Source: Methanoculleus bourgensis MS2
GTDB taxonomy: Archaea > Halobacteriota > Methanomicrobia > Methanomicrobiales > Methanoculleaceae
Assembly: GCF_000304355.2 (NCBI RefSeq)
Contig: NC_018227.2
Span: forward strand, 682,001 to 746,000
Length of the DNA: 64,000 nt
Direction of reading: 5' to 3'
The notes below the pieces were generated by a model. It was not told the origin of the DNA. It saw only the letters and a list, made by a program, of their open reading frames with translations, and did no database searches. The translations under genes and the position numbers were made by a program. Shown piece by piece: positions 1 to 22,191 of the stretch. The first letter of the stretch is position 1, and each line of letters begins with the position of its first letter.

Positions 1-486
1 TACAGCTCGAAAGGTCGTTTTTCACGGGCCATTCTCTCCCTCTATGCCAACCATAAACCGAAAGACTGGAGGAACACCGATCGGGATGTGCTCTCAAGCG
101 TGTACTATATCCTGACCGACAGACCGAATTTACATCATATATTCCCGGTGGATTACATCAACAGGAATCCCGGAAGCAACAGGCTCGACGGGAACAGCTT
201 GATGAATATCACCTATCTGACGCAGATAACAAACCTTGAGATCAGCAACAGGAATCCTCTTGAATACATTCAGGACTATTGCAATAATCCAGATTTCGAG
301 AGGGTAATGGGCAGCCATCTTCTCCCTCCGGAAATCGTTGAATGGGCACGCATGGAGATGATGCCCGCAAACGCATTGGACGTATTCATTGAGAAACGCA
401 TAGACCTGATAATCGAAGCATTACGCACGAAAGTCCCCTCCACAAACATGGAAGTGATTGATACTCGTGAGGGCTTTTCAGGGTAG
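1..486 (+). CDS. DUF262/GmrSD-type protein, C-terminal HNH part (5' truncated by window edge)
   Basis: The frame is open from base 1, so the start lies outside the window and at least 161 residues are visible. The conserved HNH-like signature HHIFPVDY followed by an N-x-L-x-N motif (GNSLMNITYLT) matches the C-terminal DUF1524-type nuclease half of DUF262/GmrSD proteins. These proteins often restrict modified phage DNA. The N-terminal ParB/Srx-like DUF262 half would lie upstream and cannot be checked. The gene sits at the edge of an accessory region rich in HEPN/MNT remnants, which fits a defence role, but that role is inferred. Confidence 0.75.
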   Translation, partial: YSSKGRFSRAILSLYANHKPKDWRNTDRDVLSSVYYILTDRPNLHHIFPVDYINRNPGSNRLDGNSLMNITYLTQITNLEISNRNPLEYIQDYCNNPDFERVMGSHLLPPEIVEWARMEMMPANALDVFIEKRIDLIIEALRTKVPSTNMEVIDTREGFSG

Positions 487-1787: not shown

Positions 1788-3305
1788 ATGACTCACCGAG
1801 CGATTACCGCAATCCTCGTGGCATCCGTCCTGCTCCTCATCGCTGCAGCAGGGTGCATTGCCACAACGGAAGAGAAGATCATTACTATTGCACCGGCCGA
1901 CGAGGCCTACGCCCGGGGGCTCGCCGAATACGGAGCCGGCAACTACCGGGTCGCCGAAGAACGATTTGCCGAGGCCTACGCCCTCTACACCGGTGCCGGC
2001 GATGCGGATAAGGCGCTGACGGCGAGGAATGCCATCTTCCGGACGAACCGGACGGTCATGGAGTACCCGCTCGACCGTAGCGCCGCAGAGGCGGCGCTGC
2101 GGGAGAGGGTCCCCGGGATCACCGATGCGGCGATAGCCGAATGGCTGGACACTCGCGCCCAGACGATCGTCTCGGAGAACGAGACGCTCTACTACCTCGA
2201 CGTCGCTGGCAACTACCTCTACGCGCACCCCGACGAGATGCAGAAGCAGACCGCGAGTGGTGTGGACTTCGACTACATCGGCCGGTATGCCTGGGCGGAG
2301 AACCGTCCGGAGCACGGGCCGTACGTGAACCCGGTCCGCTACGCGGGCGTCGAACGGCTCGAGATCCCGCACGAGGCGCTCCCGTCGACGGGAATCCTGA
2401 AGATCTGGTTCCCGCTCCCGGTCGAGACGGAGTCGCAGAGGAACGTCACCGTCACGAACCTCTCGGCTCCCGACTTCATCGTCGCCGGCCCGTTCACCAC
2501 AGGGGCTATCGGCTACGTCTACTACGAGGTCCCGGCCGACGCAGTCAACGGGGACCTCGTCATCACGGCGGATATCGCGTTCACCTCCTACGAGCAGATC
2601 TTCGAGGATATCGATCCGGCACTGGTCGGGGAGTACAACACGAGCGATCCTGAGTACCTGCTCTACACGAAGTCCGAGCGGAACATCGAACTCACGGACG
2701 CCGTCCGGGAGAAGGCGAGGGAGATCGTCGGAAGCGAGACGAACCCGCACCTCCAGGCGCAGATGATCTACTACCACATCATAGAGACCTACCCCTACAG
2801 CCACGTTCCGCACGGCTCGCTCGACGCCCGCGAGCCGAAAGTGGCCGAGTCGACCTATATGTTCGAGACCGATCATGGCGACTGCGGCACCCAGAGTTTG
2901 CTCTTCTCTGCATTCTGCCGGTCGCTCGGGATCCCCGCCCGCACCCTCGGCGGCTACCAGATGATCATGGCTGAGACGCCCGGCGGCCACTTCTGGTCGG
3001 AGTATTACCTGCCCGGCTACGGCTGGGTCCCCAACGACCTGACGGTCGCCGAGGCGGCCGACTGGGTTGCCATGCCCGACGAGAAGCGGACCGCGTTCAA
3101 GGACTACTACGCCGCGAACCTCGATCCAGCACGCCTCGTCATCCAGAAGAACGTCGACGCTCCGATGGACCCGGCCCTGCCCGACGACGCCGTCTCCTTC
3201 AGGGTTGTCCGGCAGTCCCCGGCGATCGTCTCCGATACGGCAGACTACGACATCGAACTCTTCTGCATGGGGTGTTTCGGGATCAGCCTTGAGACCGTCG
3301 ACTGA
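1788..3305 (+). CDS. secreted transglutaminase-like lipoprotein
   Basis: The 505-residue protein starts with a lipoprotein signal (hydrophobic stretch then AAAGC at about residue 24), so it is probably anchored outside the membrane. The C-terminal third has the papain-like transglutaminase triad layout. Cys lies in DHGDCGTQSLLF (about residue 365), His in GGHFWSEYYLPGYGW (about 402), and Asp in VPNDLT (about 418). The middle region (about 180-290) is a beta-rich domain like those preceding archaeal transglutaminase cores. It may act as a cell-surface protease or cross-linker. It follows decayed HEPN/MNT genes but seems unrelated to them. An oligo-T run at 3315-3320 could end transcription. 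Confidence 0.8.
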   Translation: MTHRAITAILVASVLLLIAAAGCIATTEEKIITIAPADEAYARGLAEYGAGNYRVAEERFAEAYALYTGAGDADKALTARNAIFRTNRTVMEYPLDRSAAEAALRERVPGITDAAIAEWLDTRAQTIVSENETLYYLDVAGNYLYAHPDEMQKQTASGVDFDYIGRYAWAENRPEHGPYVNPVRYAGVERLEIPHEALPSTGILKIWFPLPVETESQRNVTVTNLSAPDFIVAGPFTTGAIGYVYYEVPADAVNGDLVITADIAFTSYEQIFEDIDPALVGEYNTSDPEYLLYTKSERNIELTDAVREKAREIVGSETNPHLQAQMIYYHIIETYPYSHVPHGSLDAREPKVAESTYMFETDHGDCGTQSLLFSAFCRSLGIPARTLGGYQMIMAETPGGHFWSEYYLPGYGWVPNDLTVAEAADWVAMPDEKRTAFKDYYAANLDPARLVIQKNVDAPMDPALPDDAVSFRVVRQSPAIVSDTADYDIELFCMGCFGISLETVD

Positions 3306-4027: not shown

Positions 4028-4343
4028 GAGGCGGGTACGGACCCGACAGTATTCCCGATCGCATAAGGCTTAACCGGAGTCTGTGACCATCTGCATGGAA
4101 GCGGAGCCGGTCTTATACCCGGCGGTCGGGGCTTTCTTTGAGGACGGCTGGAGAATGCGTTCTCTATCCGCATTACATCCGGGACTGTAACGCGAGTGCC
4201 GGCCAACCATGCTCCCCCCCGCGAGGCAGCAGATGGTAGAGAGCACGGGACGGCCGGCGCAGTTCCCGCAGCGTTTCCCTGCGATCGCGTGCCGGCGCAC
4301 TTTCACAAGAGTCATAACGCCCGGGAGAGAACCCACTCTTCTG

Positions 4344-6575
<2,232 letters not shown>

Positions 6576-6697: not shown

Positions 6698-8857
6698 TTA
6701 CACATCTTCAGATCCAAACGGGGCAACTGTTCTGGGTGGAGCAACCGCTATATCGAGGTATTTCTTGGCAAAATCTATTGCAAGCAGATCTGCTGGTATG
6801 TATCGATCGTATTTCTCTGTGATCAGATCGTCGTATTTTTGTGCAATTTCTGTTTCTGGGGGAGCGTTGGATAGAATCTCTGTATAAAAGTGCAAAATCT
6901 CATTGGAGTCTGCGCCTTCAAAGAAGAGAGCAATATCTTTTTCACGAATGTCAAAACCTCCATAACAAGATCCAAGAATTCGAAGGGTGCGTAGAGCCGC
7001 CGAACCTGCCCAGGGGAACCAGAAGGTGCCGTTTGACACCGGTATAAGGTCATAATCCGCGATTTCCACGGCCCTAGCAGTAGATCGAGCCGAAGCGAGG
7101 AGTGCTTTGCCCGGTGTGTCGAGGTACACCGGGATATTATCTGAAAGGAGCAAGTGACGCATCTTTCGGTGGATAGTTGGGTGAGTATTAGCTTCTCCGC
7201 TACCGGGGAAATATGGTACCTTGCCTCCGCTGGATGGTTGAACTGTGATTTCTTTCCTGTCCAGATCTACATTGAGGACTTCCCAGCGTTGCCCCGCGAG
7301 GATCAGATGCTGCAAGTTTTCTATGCCGAAGGTATATGCAATGCTACCAATCTGTTTGCTCTTCCAGAGCACTCTTATCCCAGGTTCTGTCTGGAAACAG
7401 GCATAAAAGTCCATACGGCGCACAATTCGCTCTCCCTGTAACCCTAAAATAAGCAGTCCTCCTGCATCCTGCTCAATAAGATCGGCGTCAGCCATGCTCC
7501 GCAGGATACTAATAAACTCCGACTGTGTCACCCAAGTAAAGGCTCCTTTTGCCACAAGTACATCATAGAGTGTAGCTGCCCCAGCGCCACCCCTCTCAGT
7601 GATGACACTAAGAATTTGCTGAATAATGGTAGAGTAATGCGGCAGATCGGTTTTGGGGGGCTCACACCACTTGTCGAGCATGAGCTCGAAGAGAGCGAGC
7701 GCACGGAGGAGTGAGGGGTAGAGTTGGTCGACGAGATCCGTCTCCTTCTTGTGCGCTTCGTGGATGAACATAATCATGACGGACGTAGCCCCCTCCCTTC
7801 GACCGCTTCTTCCAAGGCGCTGGCAGAGGGAGTGCACTGACCAAGGGGCTCCGATCTGTCCGACCCGGGAAACATCCCCGACGTCGATGCCGAGTTCAAG
7901 AGTGCTCGAACAGAATGTTGCTGTCGGATGCCCTGACTTCAGGGCCGTCTCGGTTTCCTCCCGCTCAGATTTTGAGAGGGAGCCATGGTGGATTCTAAAT
8001 AAGTTGGGTAATTTTGCTTCTTTGAGGGTTCGGTTCACTCGATCGGTATAGAGTTCCAGGTTTGAGCGACTATTAATGAAGATCAGGCTATTTTTACCGT
8101 AAAAATGGTGAATAACATCTTCAGAGAGTTTCATCAGGGCTGGTTCCTCATTCTTATCGCCTTCAGAGGCTGAGTCAAAGAGATATCCTTTGATGAGGAA
8201 TGAGATGTCCTTCTCTCCGCCTTTATCTAATATAATTTGCACACGTTCTGGATTTCTGGGTGATAACCACCTTTGTGTGGCGGGAAGATCGCCCAATGTT
8301 GCTGAAAGACCAATGATACGGGGTGTTATTGCACTGATCTGGGCAATTCTTGTGAGAAGGCTTTTCAGGTGCATACCTCGCTCTGTTCCGATGAAGGCAT
8401 GTACCTCATCGATGACGATGAAAGGGAGTGAGTGGAAGAGGGAAGGCAACTGGGAGGAGTGGTTAATAAAGAGAGACTCAATTGACTCAGGTGTGATCAG
8501 TAGTACTCCCGATGGTTCCGCCAGGAATCGCTTTTTTTGCGCACTCCCTACGTCTCCATGCCACCTGAAGACAGGGATCTCTGCTGCATCACAGAGTTCC
8601 TCAAGACGTCTGAACTGGTCATTAATGAGAGCCTTGAGCGGACCAACATAGAGTGCCTGGACCCCTTTCTCCCTTCGCGCAATGATGGCAGAGAGGATGG
8701 GGAGAAAGGCTGCCTCTGTCTTGCCTGATGCGGTCGCTGCAGAAATGATCAGATGATCCGTACTGTTACTGACCGCAAAGATAGCCTCAACCTGAATCTG
8801 GCGCAGTTTGTTCCAGCGCATTCTATACAATTCCTGTTGAATTGCTGGATGAAGCAA
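6698..8857 (-). CDS. Lhr/BrxHI-like DEVH-box helicase
   Basis: This is a 719-residue superfamily 2 helicase. It has motif I TASGKTEAA (residues 42-50), motif II DEVH (150-153), a motif III-like LSATLGD, and motif VI QRLGRSGRR. It resembles the Lhr-like helicase BrxHI of type 2 BREX and Lhr-type repair helicases. It is the last gene of a three-gene operon, 33 bp after the BrxD-like ATPase. Base composition is visibly more AT-rich than in the flanking genes, which suggests transfer. A nucleic-acid remodelling role powered with its ATPase partner is inferred; the target is unknown. Confidence 0.85.
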   Translation of the reverse strand: MLHPAIQQELYRMRWNKLRQIQVEAIFAVSNSTDHLIISAATASGKTEAAFLPILSAIIARREKGVQALYVGPLKALINDQFRRLEELCDAAEIPVFRWHGDVGSAQKKRFLAEPSGVLLITPESIESLFINHSSQLPSLFHSLPFIVIDEVHAFIGTERGMHLKSLLTRIAQISAITPRIIGLSATLGDLPATQRWLSPRNPERVQIILDKGGEKDISFLIKGYLFDSASEGDKNEEPALMKLSEDVIHHFYGKNSLIFINSRSNLELYTDRVNRTLKEAKLPNLFRIHHGSLSKSEREETETALKSGHPTATFCSSTLELGIDVGDVSRVGQIGAPWSVHSLCQRLGRSGRREGATSVMIMFIHEAHKKETDLVDQLYPSLLRALALFELMLDKWCEPPKTDLPHYSTIIQQILSVITERGGAGAATLYDVLVAKGAFTWVTQSEFISILRSMADADLIEQDAGGLLILGLQGERIVRRMDFYACFQTEPGIRVLWKSKQIGSIAYTFGIENLQHLILAGQRWEVLNVDLDRKEITVQPSSGGKVPYFPGSGEANTHPTIHRKMRHLLLSDNIPVYLDTPGKALLASARSTARAVEIADYDLIPVSNGTFWFPWAGSAALRTLRILGSCYGGFDIREKDIALFFEGADSNEILHFYTEILSNAPPETEIAQKYDDLITEKYDRYIPADLLAIDFAKKYLDIAVAPPRTVAPFGSEDV

Positions 8858-8890
8858 GGAAAAGGCATCTCTCGTCAGTTGTCTCTCCTC

Positions 8891-10201
8891 CTATAATCTG
8901 AACGTCACAAGGTCATCGTCTCTACAACTCGCCTTCTCATCCTTGGACTCATCTGTATACATTTTAGAGGACGGTCCTGAAAGGAGTTCTTCCCACTTCG
9001 TACCGGGGTTCTGTTCGAGCACAGAAAGTAACCCGACGAACTTCTTCACGGCGTCACGAGGGGTCTGATAGAACTCGGCTCCCAGCACATTGGAGCAATA
9101 CCCCATAAACTGGATGAGGCCATCGTCAGGGAGTAGATACTGAGATGGGTCACCTTTGGCGAATACGTTCCTGATATTGTGAAAGAGAACAAAGAGATCT
9201 TCTGCTGTTAGGTTATTCAACTTGATTACCGGCCCGGATGTGTCTATCAATCCGTTGATGGCAAACTCATTTTCACGGAGTCTGGATGCCAGAGCCTCAT
9301 AACTTGCGATTCCCCTACGTGAGTCGGCAAGAAATTCATCTGTTCCTGCGAAGATGAACCCGATGCCTGAGACACTGCCCTGAAGGCAGTCATTCACGAT
9401 GCGGAGAAGCATCTCATAATTTGCGTTTCTTGCCTGTGTACTGTTAAGACGATGAGAGAGCACCCCCATTTCATCGAGACTGACAATGAGCCCTGCATAC
9501 CCAGCCATCCTAACAAAAGCTGCCCAGAGTTTGAGATAATCATAGATGTTCTGGTCTTTTATGATCGTCCTGACTCCGAGATCATCACGCGCTTCTCCCT
9601 TTGTTTCATACTCACCTGATAGCCACCTGATGGCCGATGCGGTGAGAGCATCGTCACCTCGCTGGAACCCCTCATAATACCGCCCGAGAACACTTGCGAA
9701 GTCATACCCGCTGACAAAATCCTGAAGTGGTCGGAGTTCATGATGAATTGCACGAATAATCTCTTCGTCGCTTTTTCCTTCCCGCCTGAGGCGATGGTCG
9801 AGATCTGAAATCCAGCGCTCAATCACGCTCGGAAGTCCTCTCCCTTCAGGTTTTGCACGAGTGGCCATGGAGTGCATCAACTCGGTATAAAGTGCCTTTG
9901 CCTGACCTCCTGTGGCATGCAGGCGACGGTCAGGAGTGATGTCTGCTTGAACCACTACAAACTTTTTCTCCAATGCAACAAGACGGGATAGGTTCAGAAA
10001 AAAGCTTTTTCCTGATCCATAACGGCCAACGATAAAGCGAATTGTGGCCCCATCATCGATAATACGATCGAGATCAGTGATGATCGCATTGATCTCATCT
10101 TTTCTTCCGACTTGAATATGCTGGAGGCCTACTTTGGGGACAACACCTGCGAGCAAAGACTGAATAATTGCGCTTCGTTCACGCAGCTTTATTTGAACCA
10201 T
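8891..10201 (-). CDS. BrxD-like P-loop ATPase (DUF2791 family)
   Basis: This 436-residue ATPase has Walker A GRYGSGKSFF (about 59-68), a Walker B-like IVSLDEMG (about 239-246) and a sensor-like FIFAGTDEF. The start VPKVGLQHIQVGR and overall layout match DUF2791, the BrxD ATPase that in type 2 BREX sits beside BrxHI. Starting 14 bp after the TerB-domain gene and followed by the helicase, it is clearly co-transcribed with both. It probably oligomerises and loads or regulates the helicase, but this is inference from neighbourhood. Confidence 0.82.
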   Translation of the reverse strand: MVQIKLRERSAIIQSLLAGVVPKVGLQHIQVGRKDEINAIITDLDRIIDDGATIRFIVGRYGSGKSFFLNLSRLVALEKKFVVVQADITPDRRLHATGGQAKALYTELMHSMATRAKPEGRGLPSVIERWISDLDHRLRREGKSDEEIIRAIHHELRPLQDFVSGYDFASVLGRYYEGFQRGDDALTASAIRWLSGEYETKGEARDDLGVRTIIKDQNIYDYLKLWAAFVRMAGYAGLIVSLDEMGVLSHRLNSTQARNANYEMLLRIVNDCLQGSVSGIGFIFAGTDEFLADSRRGIASYEALASRLRENEFAINGLIDTSGPVIKLNNLTAEDLFVLFHNIRNVFAKGDPSQYLLPDDGLIQFMGYCSNVLGAEFYQTPRDAVKKFVGLLSVLEQNPGTKWEELLSGPSSKMYTDESKDEKASCRDDDLVTFRL

Positions 10202-10214
10202 ATCACTCCACCAT

Positions 10215-12608
10215 TCACGATTCGATTAGATCGCGGTCTACTCTTACCGAACCATCATCATCTTCAAGGAGAAAATCTCCCAGTTCTGTTTCTGCCCAGA
10301 TGTTAATCGCTTCGAGCGTTGCCTGAGGCATGCAGTTATGGCATTGGACGAGGTGAACAAACTCATCTCTTGTCCAGACCTCGGCGGTGAGAAGTTTCTC
10401 AAGCACTGGCACATAGCGGGGCTGGAGTCCTTCCATACAGAAATACTCTGAAGAGGATGTCTCATGTATCCTGATATTCTTAGGCTCATTCTCTCCTCCA
10501 AGCACGAAGTCTCCAGAGTCTGTTTCCTCTTTCGTGAAGATCTTATCGAGAATTGCTGACACTTCCATTGTCTCAGTCTGAATTTTGGCGACAGCGCTCT
10601 CATCGATGGCAAAAGATGGCGCAATCTCGGTCCCAGGAAGAGGGATGGATTCTCCATCAGTATACTCTGTCCCGCTATGAACAACAACCGGGGCGTCGGC
10701 AGGATCAACCTTTCCTGAGCGGGCCAGGAGCCAGTGCAGATATCCCTCTTCGATCTCCATTGCTTTGAAGATCCGGTCAAGATTCTTTTTCTCTTTGGGG
10801 TCAATGATTCCATCAGCCGTGGTCATCCCGACGAGATACTGAGCAACCGAGAGACGAGTGTCGGGATCGAGGCCCTCTTTTAACCTTTTACCCAACCGTG
10901 TTAGTGAGGGTGGTTTCTGGTAATAGAGATCTTCAAGTGCCTCAAGGCACTGTTTCTCAAAGCTAGATAGCACAAAGTTCTCTTCGAAAAATGTATGTAA
11001 ATGCGCCTGTTCTGTGGGGTCAATATAGCCGTCCGAGGCTGCAATACCCACACCTAACTCAAGCATCAAGGCATATGATGGAAATGATGGGCTTAGATCC
11101 CCTTTGCTATCTGCAGGGAGTGGAAGGAGCGCGAGAGTTTCATCCCACTGATAACTGTTCCCCGCATGACGGATGTCAGGGAGGATGATATACCCGCCAT
11201 CACGTACGGTCTGAACGAGGTTCCTACTTTGCACTACGGTAAGCCGATAGCGGTTTTCAAGCCCGATCACTTCGGCGAGGGATGAGGTGGTAACGAGTGC
11301 CCACGTTTTCTCCTGCCGATGCTCTTCGAAAAGGCGGTCCCATGCATCTTGATCGGGGTGAGGGATCGTTGCTCTCAATTCTTCTGGCAGGGAAGCATAT
11401 GTCTGCCAGGTAATGGCTCCTTTACCTTTTGAAAGCTGTGTTACAAACGGTTTGACATCCTGCACACAGTTATCCAAGAGAGAAAACAGGTTGCTGAACT
11501 GCTTTTTGCGCCCAAGTGGATTGGGAATCGGGCAGGGTTCAATGGTGGGCACAGTTTTACCTGGTATGTTGGAATGATTCGTGAGAATGCTCGGACTGGC
11601 TGGTTTATATTCCAGTCGATAGGGATTTTTTGCTGGAACAACGCTGAGACCGCCACTAAACATGGAGAGGTAGCGCGCCCGGAACAATTTTTCTAGATAT
11701 GAGTTTTCCTTCTTGACGGCGGAGGGAATATTTACTCCAGAGAAATGCCGTGCGACGCTGTATGCTAGTTGCCATGGGAGAGGCTTTCCTTTTTGAGCAT
11801 ACCAGGCAAGACCAACCATCGTCATCGATTCGGTTAGTGTGGTCATGTCGGAGAAATACTCCCTGATGTCGCCCTCGGACAAGTTCTCTAGCCTTAGGGC
11901 AGCCATATAAGCGATAAAACTTCCCAGATAGGCATTGAAAGAACGTGAAGCACGATATCTTTCCAGAAGGCGCTGTACCTCTGGCACGATGCTGTCAAGA
12001 TCCCTTTTATCGATGAGTGCCCGCTTCTCTAGCCCGTAGAAGTAGAGGAAGGCGTAGCCAATCTCTTCAAGATCACTATCCTTGCCGGTAGAGAGCCATA
12101 GGAGATATCTCGCCCTCTGATCTGGGGTGAGCTGAGAGTAGCATGGCCAGTAGGGCAGAGGAGGGGTATCGGGGTTACAGGATTGACCGACCGGCAGTGT
12201 TATGTCTAGGCAGGAGGCCTCATCAGGAGAGACACTACCACGCGACCAATAAACGAGGGGATTTTGGATGGCGTACCCGTGTACTGTAATGGGTGTTTCC
12301 ATGCCGGCCCAGAGAAGAGTGTTGTCCTTTGAATCTTGCGAAATTTGTGTAACCGTTCTCTTTGCATCCAGAACGGCAGTTGGTGTCACCACACGAACCG
12401 ATGAGATGCGAGGGGGAGGGGGAACAACCTTGGTTGTGACCTCTTTAGAGTCTGGAATCCCTGTATTCTGGGGTTTATCAAGTTTTTTGCTACCATCTGG
12501 GGAATGAAGAGTCGTGTCGGTCTGCTTCTGCAAAGAACGGAGACCGAAGAAGAGTAATATTCCCAATATCAAAAAAGCGATCGCTATTACGCCGATTATT
12601 GCAGACAT
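10215..12608 (-). CDS. membrane-anchored TerB_N/TerB/TerB_C domain protein
   Basis: This 797-residue protein starts with one transmembrane helix (about 4-24, AIIGVIAIAFLILGILLFF). Next comes a TerB_N-like region (about 80-300: WAGMETPITVHGY, then DQRARYLLWLSTGK). At about 510-630 is a TerB domain with two acidic helical repeats (GIAASDGYIDPTEQ and GMTTADGIIDPKEKK), the likely metal-binding half-motifs. A TerB_C-like tail ends the protein. TerB domains were first known from tellurite-resistance stress systems. As the first gene of the operon, it probably tethers the ATPase/helicase to the membrane and may sense metal or stress. No other Ter genes are seen here. Confidence 0.8.
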   Translation of the reverse strand: MSAIIGVIAIAFLILGILLFFGLRSLQKQTDTTLHSPDGSKKLDKPQNTGIPDSKEVTTKVVPPPPRISSVRVVTPTAVLDAKRTVTQISQDSKDNTLLWAGMETPITVHGYAIQNPLVYWSRGSVSPDEASCLDITLPVGQSCNPDTPPLPYWPCYSQLTPDQRARYLLWLSTGKDSDLEEIGYAFLYFYGLEKRALIDKRDLDSIVPEVQRLLERYRASRSFNAYLGSFIAYMAALRLENLSEGDIREYFSDMTTLTESMTMVGLAWYAQKGKPLPWQLAYSVARHFSGVNIPSAVKKENSYLEKLFRARYLSMFSGGLSVVPAKNPYRLEYKPASPSILTNHSNIPGKTVPTIEPCPIPNPLGRKKQFSNLFSLLDNCVQDVKPFVTQLSKGKGAITWQTYASLPEELRATIPHPDQDAWDRLFEEHRQEKTWALVTTSSLAEVIGLENRYRLTVVQSRNLVQTVRDGGYIILPDIRHAGNSYQWDETLALLPLPADSKGDLSPSFPSYALMLELGVGIAASDGYIDPTEQAHLHTFFEENFVLSSFEKQCLEALEDLYYQKPPSLTRLGKRLKEGLDPDTRLSVAQYLVGMTTADGIIDPKEKKNLDRIFKAMEIEEGYLHWLLARSGKVDPADAPVVVHSGTEYTDGESIPLPGTEIAPSFAIDESAVAKIQTETMEVSAILDKIFTKEETDSGDFVLGGENEPKNIRIHETSSSEYFCMEGLQPRYVPVLEKLLTAEVWTRDEFVHLVQCHNCMPQATLEAINIWAETELGDFLLEDDDGSVRVDRDLIES

Positions 12609-13059: not shown

Positions 13060-13911
13060 TCACACCCCCGAACCAGGAATCAATCCACTCACGCACGCAA
13101 TATGCTCCCCCGCCTTCGTGACCTGGACCGAGAAGTTCCGGCCCTGCCACTGCCGCTCCACGTAGCCCTGCTCCTCGAGCTCCCTGAGGTAGCCGCGGTT
13201 CATCCGGTTTAAGAGCGCCCGTTTCTTTTTGGCCCGCTGATACGCGTCACGCTCGGCCGTGTGCAGTTTCTCCTCCTCGTAGCCATGGACCCCGATGCTG
13301 TGGAAGAACCCGATGATCTCCTCGCTCGTCATCCCGTCGCCGCCGCTCTCCTTGCGCCGGAGGAGCTCGACGAGGAGCATGACGTTCTCAGGCTTCGGCA
13401 TCATGATCCTGAAGCGCTGGAAGACCTCGGTCCTGACGTTCTCAACGATCGAGAGGCCGTGCTCGCACTCCTCCTCGCCGCCGCCCGTCGCATAGCGGTC
13501 GGCGCTGACGTAGTAGAGCGGGACCTCGTGCACCATCGCGGCGAGCGTCACCGCGACCGAGGTCTTCCGGCCGCAGGAGGACATGTTGACATAGACGGCG
13601 TTGCCGGCCTCCTTCTCGGTGCGGATAAGGAACGAGACCCCTTTGAGGACATCCAGGATATCGAACATCGCGACCGGGACGAACGTCACGGCAATCCCGA
13701 GTTCCTGCAGTCTCCCGGTCACCCGGCCGACAAAGTAATGCTGTTTTTTGACCATCCCGGGATCGAGGCCGCCGTCCGGCGGGATGGCGAGGATGTAGGC
13801 GCGGTCGGCCTTGTTCTTCGTGAACGGCGCCACCGCCCGGTCGATCTCGTGGCCGAGGGGGATGATGTGGACGACGTCACGCAGGCCCCCGGTGAGGAGC
13901 TGGTTGTTCAT
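13060..13911 (-). CDS. CARF-like Rossmann domain plus winged-helix regulator (DUF6293/Csa3-like)
   Basis: The N-terminal half (about 1-150) alternates strands and helices and contains VYVNMSSCGRKTSVAVTLAA, resembling the ligand-binding loop of CARF domains in Csa3-type and HFX_2341/DUF6293 archaeal proteins. The C-terminal half (about 175-283) is a winged helix (EEIIGFFHSIG... GYLRELEEQGYVERQ). Such proteins sense nucleotides or cyclic oligoadenylates and control transcription. No CRISPR array or cas gene is present in the window, so it is an orphan. GTG starts up to 13938 are possible; ATG at 13911 is chosen because the upstream bases contain a repeated operator-like word. Confidence 0.72.
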   Translation of the reverse strand: MNNQLLTGGLRDVVHIIPLGHEIDRAVAPFTKNKADRAYILAIPPDGGLDPGMVKKQHYFVGRVTGRLQELGIAVTFVPVAMFDILDVLKGVSFLIRTEKEAGNAVYVNMSSCGRKTSVAVTLAAMVHEVPLYYVSADRYATGGGEEECEHGLSIVENVRTEVFQRFRIMMPKPENVMLLVELLRRKESGGDGMTSEEIIGFFHSIGVHGYEEEKLHTAERDAYQRAKKKRALLNRMNRGYLRELEEQGYVERQWQGRNFSVQVTKAGEHIACVSGLIPGSGV

Positions 13912-13918
13912 TGTGTTC

Positions 13919-13978
13919 ACACTATTCACTAAATTCACGTGAAGTTGTTAATGTTTCGGTCCTGGTATACACTATTCA
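13919..13978. promoter_or_regulatory. paired 10-bp direct repeats in the divergent spacer
   Basis: The word ACACTATTCA occurs at 13919-13928 and again at 13969-13978, exactly 50 bp apart (about five helical turns). The pair lies between the CARF-like regulator and the divergent OB-like gene. It looks like a paired operator for autoregulation by the adjacent regulator. Confidence 0.45.
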
Positions 13979-15215: not shown

Positions 15216-15540
15216 TCAATCGAGCATCACCAGGATCTGACCTATGACCTCACCCGCTGATGCCAACACATCGCATGCATCGCCTCTAGAGTAAACGCAT
15301 CCGTAATCTGCGCCTCCACTTTCCCGGTATCCCCCGGAGAAGATGGGGGGCACGTAGGGCGTGAAACTGTGCATAGTAGCCCTGGATGATTGCCCACTTT
15401 ATGTTCCCCTCTGTGAAAGAATGCTCTGCAGCAGCCAGGTCCTGTTCCGCTTCCCGCAGTTCTTTCACAACCTGTTCGCGGTCGACCGGGATGCGGACGG
15501 TCTTTCCCCGTTGTAGGCACTGCTCAAACCGGTACTTCAC
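15216..15540 (-). pseudogene. HEPN-domain gene with internal deletion and frameshift
   Basis: The first frame gives a clear HEPN N-terminus (VDREQVVKELREAEQDLAAA, then WAIIQGYYAQFHALRA). It then fails near 15360. The sequence resumes in another frame with the family C-terminus (ADYGCVYSRGDACDVLASAG, ending ILVMLD at 15216). The middle segment between these parts is missing, so the gene has lost coding sequence as well as frame. Its start overlaps the end of a nucleotidyltransferase fragment by 17 bp, as in intact HEPN/MNT pairs. Confidence 0.68.
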
Positions 15541-15808
15541 TGCACTCCTCGATCAGAACCTTTCCTGCCAAAATGCGCCCGTAGAGAGCCGGGTCAGCGG
15601 TTTTCAGGGACCGGAACCCGCCGGGCGTGAGGATGAGCGGCGAGATCTCGCGGTCGAGCCCGGCCTGAACCCCGGCGACGGTCTCTGCTACGGTCTTAGT
15701 ATCACTCGTCTCGATGAAGAGATCACTTTTTTCCACTCTATAAATACATGCACGAATACGTGCAGTTTGAAAATAAAAAAGTAATTCTTGAGTGCATCTA
15801 CCGCTCAA
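15524..15808 (-). pseudogene. nucleotidyltransferase C-terminal fragment (partner of HEPN remnant)
   Basis: The segment DLFIETSDTKTVAETVAG and EISPLILTPGGFRSLKTADP resembles the second half of the larger HTH-nucleotidyltransferases paired with HEPN proteins. The GSxARG catalytic loop and the HTH are absent; the first 25 residues look like read-through. It is the third broken HEPN/MNT pair in the first 16 kb. Confidence 0.55.
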
Positions 15809-15825
15809 TTGATGACGTACGGCAT

Positions 15826-16203
15826 CTATATGGTCCTATCTTCCTGCTTCCGTTTAACTTTCGTTGAAAGCGCCGTCCCCGTCAGGCTCTCGGGTACGTA
15901 CTTCTCCATGCCTTCCTCTTTGTACACCTTATCAAGGATCCCGCTCAACGCTTCAGCGAGTTTCTGCGCGGCAGCGTGTGACATATAGACGCGTGTTCCG
16001 TTTACGCGCATCCTGTCATCCCGGCGGATACCGGGCATCTCCAGGAAATCGATGAAAACATCTCTGTGCGTTACCTGGACGTATGCAAGGTTTGAGTAGG
16101 AACTGTGCGTGATGTCCGGCTGCAGTTCTCCGGGCTCGAATTGATAGAGTTCTCTGAGATCGATAACGGTTGCTCCGTCCTTCCCCTTCTTCTCCTCTTC
16201 CAT
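15826..16203 (-). CDS. DUF3467 family protein
   Basis: The 125-residue protein contains SSYSNLAYVQVTHRDVFIDF and the RVYMSHAAAQKLAEAL helix, the hallmark of DUF3467, a small beta-barrel-like family of unknown role in archaea and bacteria. It starts three bases after the HTH gene stop, so the two form an operon controlled from the palindrome at 16750. The C-terminal 35 residues are charged and likely flexible. Confidence 0.72.
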   Translation of the reverse strand: MEEEKKGKDGATVIDLRELYQFEPGELQPDITHSSYSNLAYVQVTHRDVFIDFLEMPGIRRDDRMRVNGTRVYMSHAAAQKLAEALSGILDKVYKEEGMEKYVPESLTGTALSTKVKRKQEDRTI

Positions 16204-16205
16204 GG

Positions 16206-16706
16206 TTACGCTCCCGCTGCGAAGGTCACATACCCTGAATCTGTGTCTCGTTCAGAGTATTCTCCTCCAATAGTCCATTTTCCGGTATAGTTCATCGCAA
16301 TTGCAAGCGGTTCTACCTTCGCCCTGAGAGAGCTGTTGTAGTAGTCCTGGATGGCCGTGTCCATGCAGTCCGTGCCGTCCCGGTCGTCGATGACGGCGTA
16401 CGCCAACAGAGAGAGCGCGACGAACTTCTTCGACTCAACAACGACCCGATAGACGGGGTGTTGTACATCGCTTGATATGTTCTCGATCAGTCCGAGTCTG
16501 ACGAGAGTCTTAAGTGCCTCTCTGATGCTGGGGGGCCTCTTGCCCGTCATCTCCTCAAGGTACCTGGGCCGGTAATCCATCGTCGGATCAGCGATGATCT
16601 CCTCAACGACCTGAGCGAGTACTGTATTCCCAAAAAGGCCGCCATATGGTTTGTTCAGGTATTCTTCGAGTTCTTCAGGAAGTTTCGGCAGTTTCTTCCC
16701 GGACAT
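16206..16706 (-). CDS. winged-helix transcriptional regulator
   Basis: The 166-residue protein has a winged helix at about 25-90 (VVEEIIADP, YLEEMTGKRPPSIREALKTL, LGLIENI, VYRVVV) and an all-helical C-terminal part. The ATG at 16706 is preferred over the one at 16712 because GGAGGG lies six bases before it and directly abuts the earlier one. It is followed almost without gap by DUF3467. It probably binds the palindrome just upstream. Confidence 0.7.
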   Translation of the reverse strand: MSGKKLPKLPEELEEYLNKPYGGLFGNTVLAQVVEEIIADPTMDYRPRYLEEMTGKRPPSIREALKTLVRLGLIENISSDVQHPVYRVVVESKKFVALSLLAYAVIDDRDGTDCMDTAIQDYYNSSLRAKVEPLAIAMNYTGKWTIGGEYSERDTDSGYVTFAAGA

Positions 16707-16749
16707 AAACATCCCTCCCTTATGCAGTTACATTGGTAGTGCTGCTATC

Positions 16750-21099: not shown

Positions 21100-22191
21100 T
21101 TATCCAAGCTCATCCCAGCGGGTCTTCTTCCGGTAGATCACAGCGCCCACGATGGCGAGGACGACAATAACTCCAATGCCTACATAGAGGAGGAGGTTAC
21201 CGCCGAGGCTGAACCCCTCGCCGATCTTCTCCCGCAGGGCGTCCGCATCGCCTAGAGCCTCGTTTGCCTTCTTCAGGCCTTCAGTCGCCTTCGAACGTGC
21301 CAGCGGATAGTTGTTGGCATTCAGGTTGTCCTTCGCCTGGGAGTAGAACTGGACGGCACTCTCGCGCTTGGTCACGATGGAGACCACCCTTGGATCCCCG
21401 CCCATGGAGCGGTTCTCGACAAAGTAGTTGATCCTTCCATCGAGGGACTCGATCGTCGCGGCGGCATTGGAGACCTCCTTCTCGGCCCATGCCTTGTCGA
21501 GGAGCGACTTTGCCTCGTCTATATTCTTCGTGGCGGTGCTGATGTACCCCGCCGCCTGCGACGGACTTGCAGATGCGGCGCTGGTGAGCGCCTGATTCGC
21601 GGCGTCGTACTTGGGCTGCACGGCAGAGATGTCCACACCCTGTCCGGCCTTCTCATCCATGTCGGCCTTCAGGTCCTTGAGGTTCTGCTGCTGGAGAGAG
21701 AGAGAACTCCCGATCTGAGTTACGCTCACGACGTCGCGGGTCACAGAATGGGTATCCTTCACGTCTTTATCTCGCAGGTGCTCGATCTTGATCACCAGGA
21801 TCTTCCCGCTCGCGCTCGTGGGCACAGTGCCACTCATCTGGATGTCAAGTTCGACATCCTGATCGCCGTAGGCGATCTCATACTCCGTCAGGACCCGGGG
21901 GTGTGTCCCCATCCCCTTAGGGTTATTAATGGCAACCCCATCGCGGTAGACAGTGAAATCCCAGGAGGGATTCTGCAACCCGGTGCTGATCTCGAACGTC
22001 TCGTCGCTTGGATCAGCAGTGGTTATCATGTCATAAGAAAGTACATAGCGTGCGGTCACCCGCTGGTCGGGTTCGAGAGCGCCGCTCGCGGGACTGATGG
22101 TCTGGGTCTTGATCTCAAACGCCGATACGACCTGCACAGCACAGACCAGTGCCAGCAGGAGAATGATCCATCTGCTGATATTTGCCTTCAT
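21100..22191 (-). CDS. secreted membrane-anchored protein downstream of cetZ
   Basis: The 363-residue protein has a signal peptide (about 1-24, ending VVSA) and a beta-sandwich-like ectodomain (about 25-150). A long helical, Ala/Ser-rich segment follows (about 165-325: LQQQNLKDLKADMDEKAGQG, NAAATIESLDGRINYFVENR). A C-terminal transmembrane helix at about 335-355 is followed by a short basic tail (YRKKTRWDELG). It starts 12 bp after the cetZ stop, so they are co-transcribed. The short cytoplasmic tail could contact CetZ, making it a candidate envelope partner; this is inferred from linkage only. Confidence 0.75.
   Translation of the reverse strand: MKANISRWIILLLALVCAVQVVSAFEIKTQTISPASGALEPDQRVTARYVLSYDMITTADPSDETFEISTGLQNPSWDFTVYRDGVAINNPKGMGTHPRVLTEYEIAYGDQDVELDIQMSGTVPTSASGKILVIKIEHLRDKDVKDTHSVTRDVVSVTQIGSSLSLQQQNLKDLKADMDEKAGQGVDISAVQPKYDAANQALTSAASASPSQAAGYISTATKNIDEAKSLLDKAWAEKEVSNAAATIESLDGRINYFVENRSMGGDPRVVSIVTKRESAVQFYSQAKDNLNANNYPLARSKATEGLKKANEALGDADALREKIGEGFSLGGNLLLYVGIGVIVVLAIVGAVIYRKKTRWDELG

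Follow-up and report, generated by a model that had tools for sequence, protein, structure and literature searches.

The Shango system was reportedly described by Millman and co-workers in 2022, and its naming is said to date from 2022–2023. To our knowledge, no archaeal Shango has been tested. Cloned from P. aeruginosa PA14, the genes for a TerB protein, an ATPase and a helicase made several phages plate 10–100-fold less and protected liquid cultures, and an independent report from E. coli is cited in the same work (Johnson et al., 2023; PMC10250203). In a survey, Shango was counted among the systems commoner in Asgard archaea than elsewhere among prokaryotes (PMC11291487), so that its occurrence in archaea is not new.

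Analyzing a window of 64 kb of the Methanoculleus bourgensis MS2 sequence NC_018227.2 (the window being the whole stretch of DNA studied), three co-directed minus-strand genes were found at positions 6698–12608. All three encoded proteins scored far better on the PADLOC models SngA, SngB and SngC of Shango than on BREX models. A TerB-domain SngA, an SngB with Walker motifs and an SngC with helicase motifs are encoded by adjacent genes on one strand in the order A-B-C (Table 1). With a probability of roughly 90% we regard the trio as a complete Shango (SngABC) operon with a defence role. Judged by its genes, it is a real, complete and probably functional member of the known system; the anti-phage activity of the archaeal copy is inferred by extrapolation from its bacterial relatives. 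A first-pass annotation of the same DNA had proposed that the genes form a defence unit of their own, tethered to the membrane and with relatives in BrxD/BrxHI, which holds; its idea of an undescribed minimal system had to be given up, as the trio is Shango, which is anti-phage in bacteria and already included in PADLOC. The domains it had named (a TerB_N/TerB/TerB_C protein, a BrxD-like ATPase and an Lhr/BrxHI-like helicase) were recovered by Pfam and PADLOC. Likewise, the tight spacing was confirmed, with gaps of 13 bp and 33 bp between the three genes using the annotated starts, and so was the AT-richness of the trio (GC 0.486–0.496 versus 0.587 for the window). Scans of the locus for sigma-70 promoters and terminators yielded no more than shuffled sequence.

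Table 1. Features of the M. bourgensis Shango locus and its direct neighbours in window coordinates.
Feature	Position	Strand	Evidence
C-terminal end of GmrSD_N (DUF262) gene starting left of the window	1..486	+	Pfam GmrSD_N E 1.4e-30 on L023:18690-20000; ORF runs into the window
Second, accessory RecQ, convergent with sngC	4209..6575	+	NCBIfam recQ 710 bits
sngC, Lhr/BrxHI-like SF2 helicase, proposed CTG start 8878 (annotated TTG 8857)	6698..8878	-	PADLOC SngC E 2.4e-230 versus BrxHI 9.3e-127
SngC helicase motif II DEVH	8399..8410	-	D150, E151, H153 invariant in SngC alignments
SngC helicase motif I ATASGKTE	8714..8737	-	G45, K46, T47, E48 invariant in SngC alignments
Shine-Dalgarno-like sequence of sngC, GGAGGAG (overlaps the stop codon of sngB)	8885..8891	-	Sequence; L016 Shango locus arranged alike
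sngB, BrxC/BrxD-family AAA+ ATPase, 436 aa, ATG start	8891..10201	-	PADLOC SngB E 1.7e-161 versus BrxD 3.2e-47
SngB Walker B acidic pair D243 E244	9470..9475	-	Invariant in 16 aligned SngB
SngB Walker A GRYGSGKS	10004..10027	-	Motif in 97/97 SngB; G59, G62, G64, K65 invariant (16 aligned SngB)
sngA, TerB_N/TerB/TerB_C protein, 797 aa, ATG start	10215..12608	-	PADLOC SngA E 4.8e-57; Pfam TerB_N, TerB, TerB_C
SngA TerB_C domain, residues 663-796	10221..10622	-	Pfam PF15615 E 1.5e-18
SngA TerB domain, residues 518-621	10746..11057	-	Pfam PF05099 E 7e-14
SngA TerB_N domain, residues 105-284	11757..12296	-	Pfam PF13208 E 8e-27
SngA N-terminal transmembrane helix, residues 2-28 (predicted)	12525..12605	-	Kyte-Doolittle 19-mer mean 3.13 at residue 3; helix 2-28 in structure model
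HFX_2341-like CARF/winged-helix protein, upstream of sngA	13060..13938	-	PADLOC CARF3 E 3e-116; Pfam HFX_2341_N

The structure model of SngA (pLDDT 84.6) showed the N-terminal helix, a disordered linker and a body made up mostly of helices; rows from plasmid records were left out of the alignments used for the structure models. Comparing 58 aligned SngA sequences, W171, G192, E194 and E210 of the TerB_N domain were found invariant and two acidic DG...E motifs of the TerB domain (D526/E533 and D599/E606) were at least 90% conserved. TerB may sense metal or stress, as the first-pass annotation supposed; the acidic residues of these motifs are nearly invariant. When the model was used for a fold search, solely the TerB part matched solved structures (2h5n, 2ou3; probability 1.00, E about 0.15). 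No nuclease, pore or other effector fold was recognised in SngA by Pfam or by the fold search, in which nothing fell below E 0.1, and the candidate of a hidden nuclease was rejected on these grounds. Using a Kyte-Doolittle cutoff of 2.0, a hydrophobic segment near the N-terminus was present in 48 of 83 SngA, none of 97 SngB and none of 92 SngC. A clear segment is absent from 25 of the 83 SngA, so membrane tethering is possibly dispensable for the family. Going by these predictions, Shango usually, though not always, carries a membrane anchor.

SngB matched the Pfam family BrxC_BrxD (formerly DUF2791, as foreseen in the first-pass annotation) with 472 bits at a cutoff of 22 over nearly the whole protein; it stayed below the cutoff of the NCBIfam BrxD equivalog (157.8 of 350 bits). 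No solved structural relative of SngB was found in the search. For SngC (719 aa at 6698–8857 when read from the TTG), both DEAD and Helicase_C scored above the Pfam cutoffs, and helicase motifs I, II and VI are intact. Its structure model (pLDDT 90.4) had the Lhr helicase of M. smegmatis (5v9x, TM 0.69) as best solved fold, with which the sequence profile concurs. The reading frame stays open upstream of the TTG to a CTG six bases past the GGAGGAG, and LTRDAFS, the stretch thereby added to the N-terminus, aligns with the beginning of relatives. The most likely start of sngC is this CTG at 8878, which makes a gap of 12 bp between sngB and sngC probable. The CTG arrangement is also seen in the Shango locus L016, and a GTG occupies the place in L017.

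A profile scan of one-per-species genomes yielded at least 544 relatives, 80 of which were kept. In 75 loci the sequence extended for at least 3.5 kb to either side, and the order A-B-C on one strand was observed in 72 of these, from several bacterial phyla and from archaea. The three genes are thus conserved as a unit elsewhere, and since the same-strand order recurs so often, the arrangement is not due to chance. The apparent exception G340 also possesses an SngA according to PADLOC. SngB relatives were further found on 681 plasmid records, mostly of Klebsiella and Salmonella, and in 9 of 393 genomes of the phylum of M. bourgensis; the SngB search of phage records gave no match. There is no recurrent fourth gene, as no flanking family occurred in more than 6 of 97 Shango loci. 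A minority has genes resembling SbcD/SbcC (SbcD-like family, 6/97) or AddB/AddA (5/97) beside Shango: one or both kinds were seen in L016 (1779–6208, 12684–19087), L108, L014, L096 and L019. Both kinds are present in the archaeon L016 and in L108 (Hyphomicrobiales), and in L014 and L096 such nuclease-like genes lie only 3 bp from SngC.

Judged by the annotation of its surroundings, the M. bourgensis trio is lodged in a defence island with viperin, Mrr, GmrSD, DruE-like helicase and CARF neighbours. A cassette of a TPR protein, a prokaryotic viperin and a CARF (Csa3-like) protein (L023:4425-9201, G000:C1:666425-671201) is located about 18 kb left of the sngC end of the trio, and in G140, which belongs to another family, this cassette recurs at a distance of about 6 kb from Shango. 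It is followed, at L023:9304-20000 and window positions 1–486, by genes for a DruE-like MZB helicase of 1850 aa, an Mrr-type restriction endonuclease (PDC-S02) and the GmrSD_N protein. Orthologues of the accessory RecQ at an identity of at least 72% were detected in only 6 of 30 congeners, the other RecQ being encoded at G000:C1:2113023; the accessory protein carries a C-terminal extension. The same variable region (1788–3305 and 15286–16712) contains an ORF of 505 aa resembling, by eye, a lipoprotein with a transglutaminase-like domain, an ORF with a HEPN domain and a DUF3467 gene. Further right lies a conserved gene of the genus (21100–22191). In eight congeners it is followed by a block that sits about 390 kb away in the M. 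bourgensis genome (G000:C1:1095616-1102942); the site was therefore taken as a rearrangement breakpoint, a simple insertion at this gene not being supported.

Within the family, SngB was found in 1 of 40 genomes, that of M. bourgensis MS2. Its closest relatives, with 83% and 75% identity in SngB, belong to another family of the same order. In the SngC tree the M. bourgensis copy falls into a clade of six archaeal copies of this order (support 99). The nearest row outside this clade is a Cetobacterium plasmid copy (support 99), and the rest of the tree is bacterial. The GC3 of the trio is 0.49–0.50 compared to 0.75–0.87 in neighbouring genes. Tree position and foreign composition together argue for horizontal transfer, and with the GC3 values and the single occurrence in the family the trio looks like a recent acquisition. 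The Shango family would thus cross between bacteria and archaea, the methanogen having gained a complete, apparently intact copy.

BREX and Ter systems were considered as alternatives. The genome of M. bourgensis MS2 consists of a single closed 2.79-Mb contig. In it, sngB is the sole BrxC/D-family gene, no PglZ was found above the cutoff (best match 18.1 bits at a cutoff of 25, far from the trio) and TerD gave no match; PglX and PglW did not turn up in the scans of the genes flanking the trio. As the genome is devoid of another BrxC/D ATPase, of PglZ above the cutoff and of TerD, BREX and Ter were excluded as hosts of the trio, a Ter system being rejected on the TerD result. The first-pass annotation had seen neither PglX nor PglZ in the window and no other ter genes, which agrees with these searches; for PglZ and TerD the statement now extends to the closed genome. 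The trio might still be a type 2 BREX in degenerate or minimal form, its BrxD and BrxHI having been deprived of methylase and PglZ but joined by a TerB partner. SngB and SngC are indeed homologous to BrxD and BrxHI, and SngC, BrxHI, DruE and DpdJ were placed in a single helicase clade by the authors of the Hachiman study (PMC12278908). However, every score favours the Shango models, the NCBIfam BrxD cutoff is clearly missed, and the three genes recur as a self-standing unit. Besides staying below the cutoff in the closed genome, PglZ exceeded the cutoff in just 3 of 41 other Shango genomes and was near Shango in G340 only, so a constant company of full BREX genes is not observed. A BREX remnant was rejected by the family scores and the PglZ absence, and we give it hardly any credence. 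In G340 (L015) Shango directly adjoins a BREX locus at its BrxL and PglZ genes, the only such case of the three. A role in DNA repair or metal stress instead of viral defence appears very improbable as well, if slightly less so. It would suit the nearest solved relative of SngC, Lhr, a DNA-repair-associated helicase, the TerB domain of SngA and the SbcCD-like and AddAB-like genes adjoining a few relatives, but the tested bacterial Shango is anti-phage, no other ter gene was found in the TerD search, and the scattered occurrence, foreign base composition and neighbours in the defence island point away from it.

No paper establishing the mechanism of Shango was found in the literature searched. 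The likeliest mechanism, which we put forward tentatively and below even odds, is a membrane-tethered, ATPase-loaded DNA translocase. SngB, an ORC/Cdc6-like AAA+ ATPase, would load or regulate the Lhr-type helicase SngC on invading or replicating viral DNA; a helicase-loader role was suggested earlier for the BrxD/BrxHI dyad (PMC12839542). SngA would hold the complex at the membrane near the site of DNA entry and gate it via its acidic TerB domain. As a result, entry or replication of viral DNA would be stalled or a host nuclease recruited, the latter being proposed because the trio has no recognised nuclease. The missing solved relative of SngB, the restriction of SngA fold matches to the TerB part and the SngA proteins without a clear hydrophobic segment count against this mechanism. 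Its main rival, in itself rather unlikely, leaves the identity as Shango untouched and assumes an abortive response as in Hachiman: SngC would sense unusual viral DNA, and the membrane complex would kill or arrest the cell through SngA. The membrane helix on most SngA proteins and the logic of helicase sensor plus separate effector established for Hachiman (PMC12278908) are consistent with it, but SngA offers no recognised pore, nuclease or other effector fold. It is also conceivable, at a low probability, that Shango, in the methanogens of this order, moves as part of a composite island with the viperin-TPR-CARF cassette and, in some genomes, with SbcDC-like and AddBA-like genes that would supply the missing nuclease; Shango would then be a loader that passes viral DNA on to nucleases of repair. 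As regards how Shango works in general, the near-invariant residues of the Walker motifs and the DG...E pairs, together with the SngA membrane helix, provide direct targets for mutation.

Compared to known systems, the trio has the TerB domain with acidic DG...E motifs in common with the Ter tellurite/stress systems, but differs by the TerB_N/TerB_C extensions, the helicase partners and a genome lacking TerD. SngC resembles Lhr helicases in fold along nearly its whole length; it is, however, shorter, tied to SngA and SngB, and a distinct family by profile score. Type 2 BREX possesses a homologous pair of ATPase and helicase (BrxD and BrxHI) encoded by adjacent genes as in the trio, but here no PglZ above the cutoff is present in the genome, neither PglX nor PglW was seen among the flanking genes, a TerB protein stands instead, and the scores on BREX families are far lower than those on Shango. 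With bacterial Shango the trio shares the three proteins, gene order, strand, catalytic motifs, the usual membrane helix and the setting in a defence island or on a plasmid. The M. bourgensis copy is set apart from the described bacterial ones by its archaeal host and by a divergent SngA, which, like that of the archaeal clade as a whole, is about 20–31% identical to bacterial SngA.
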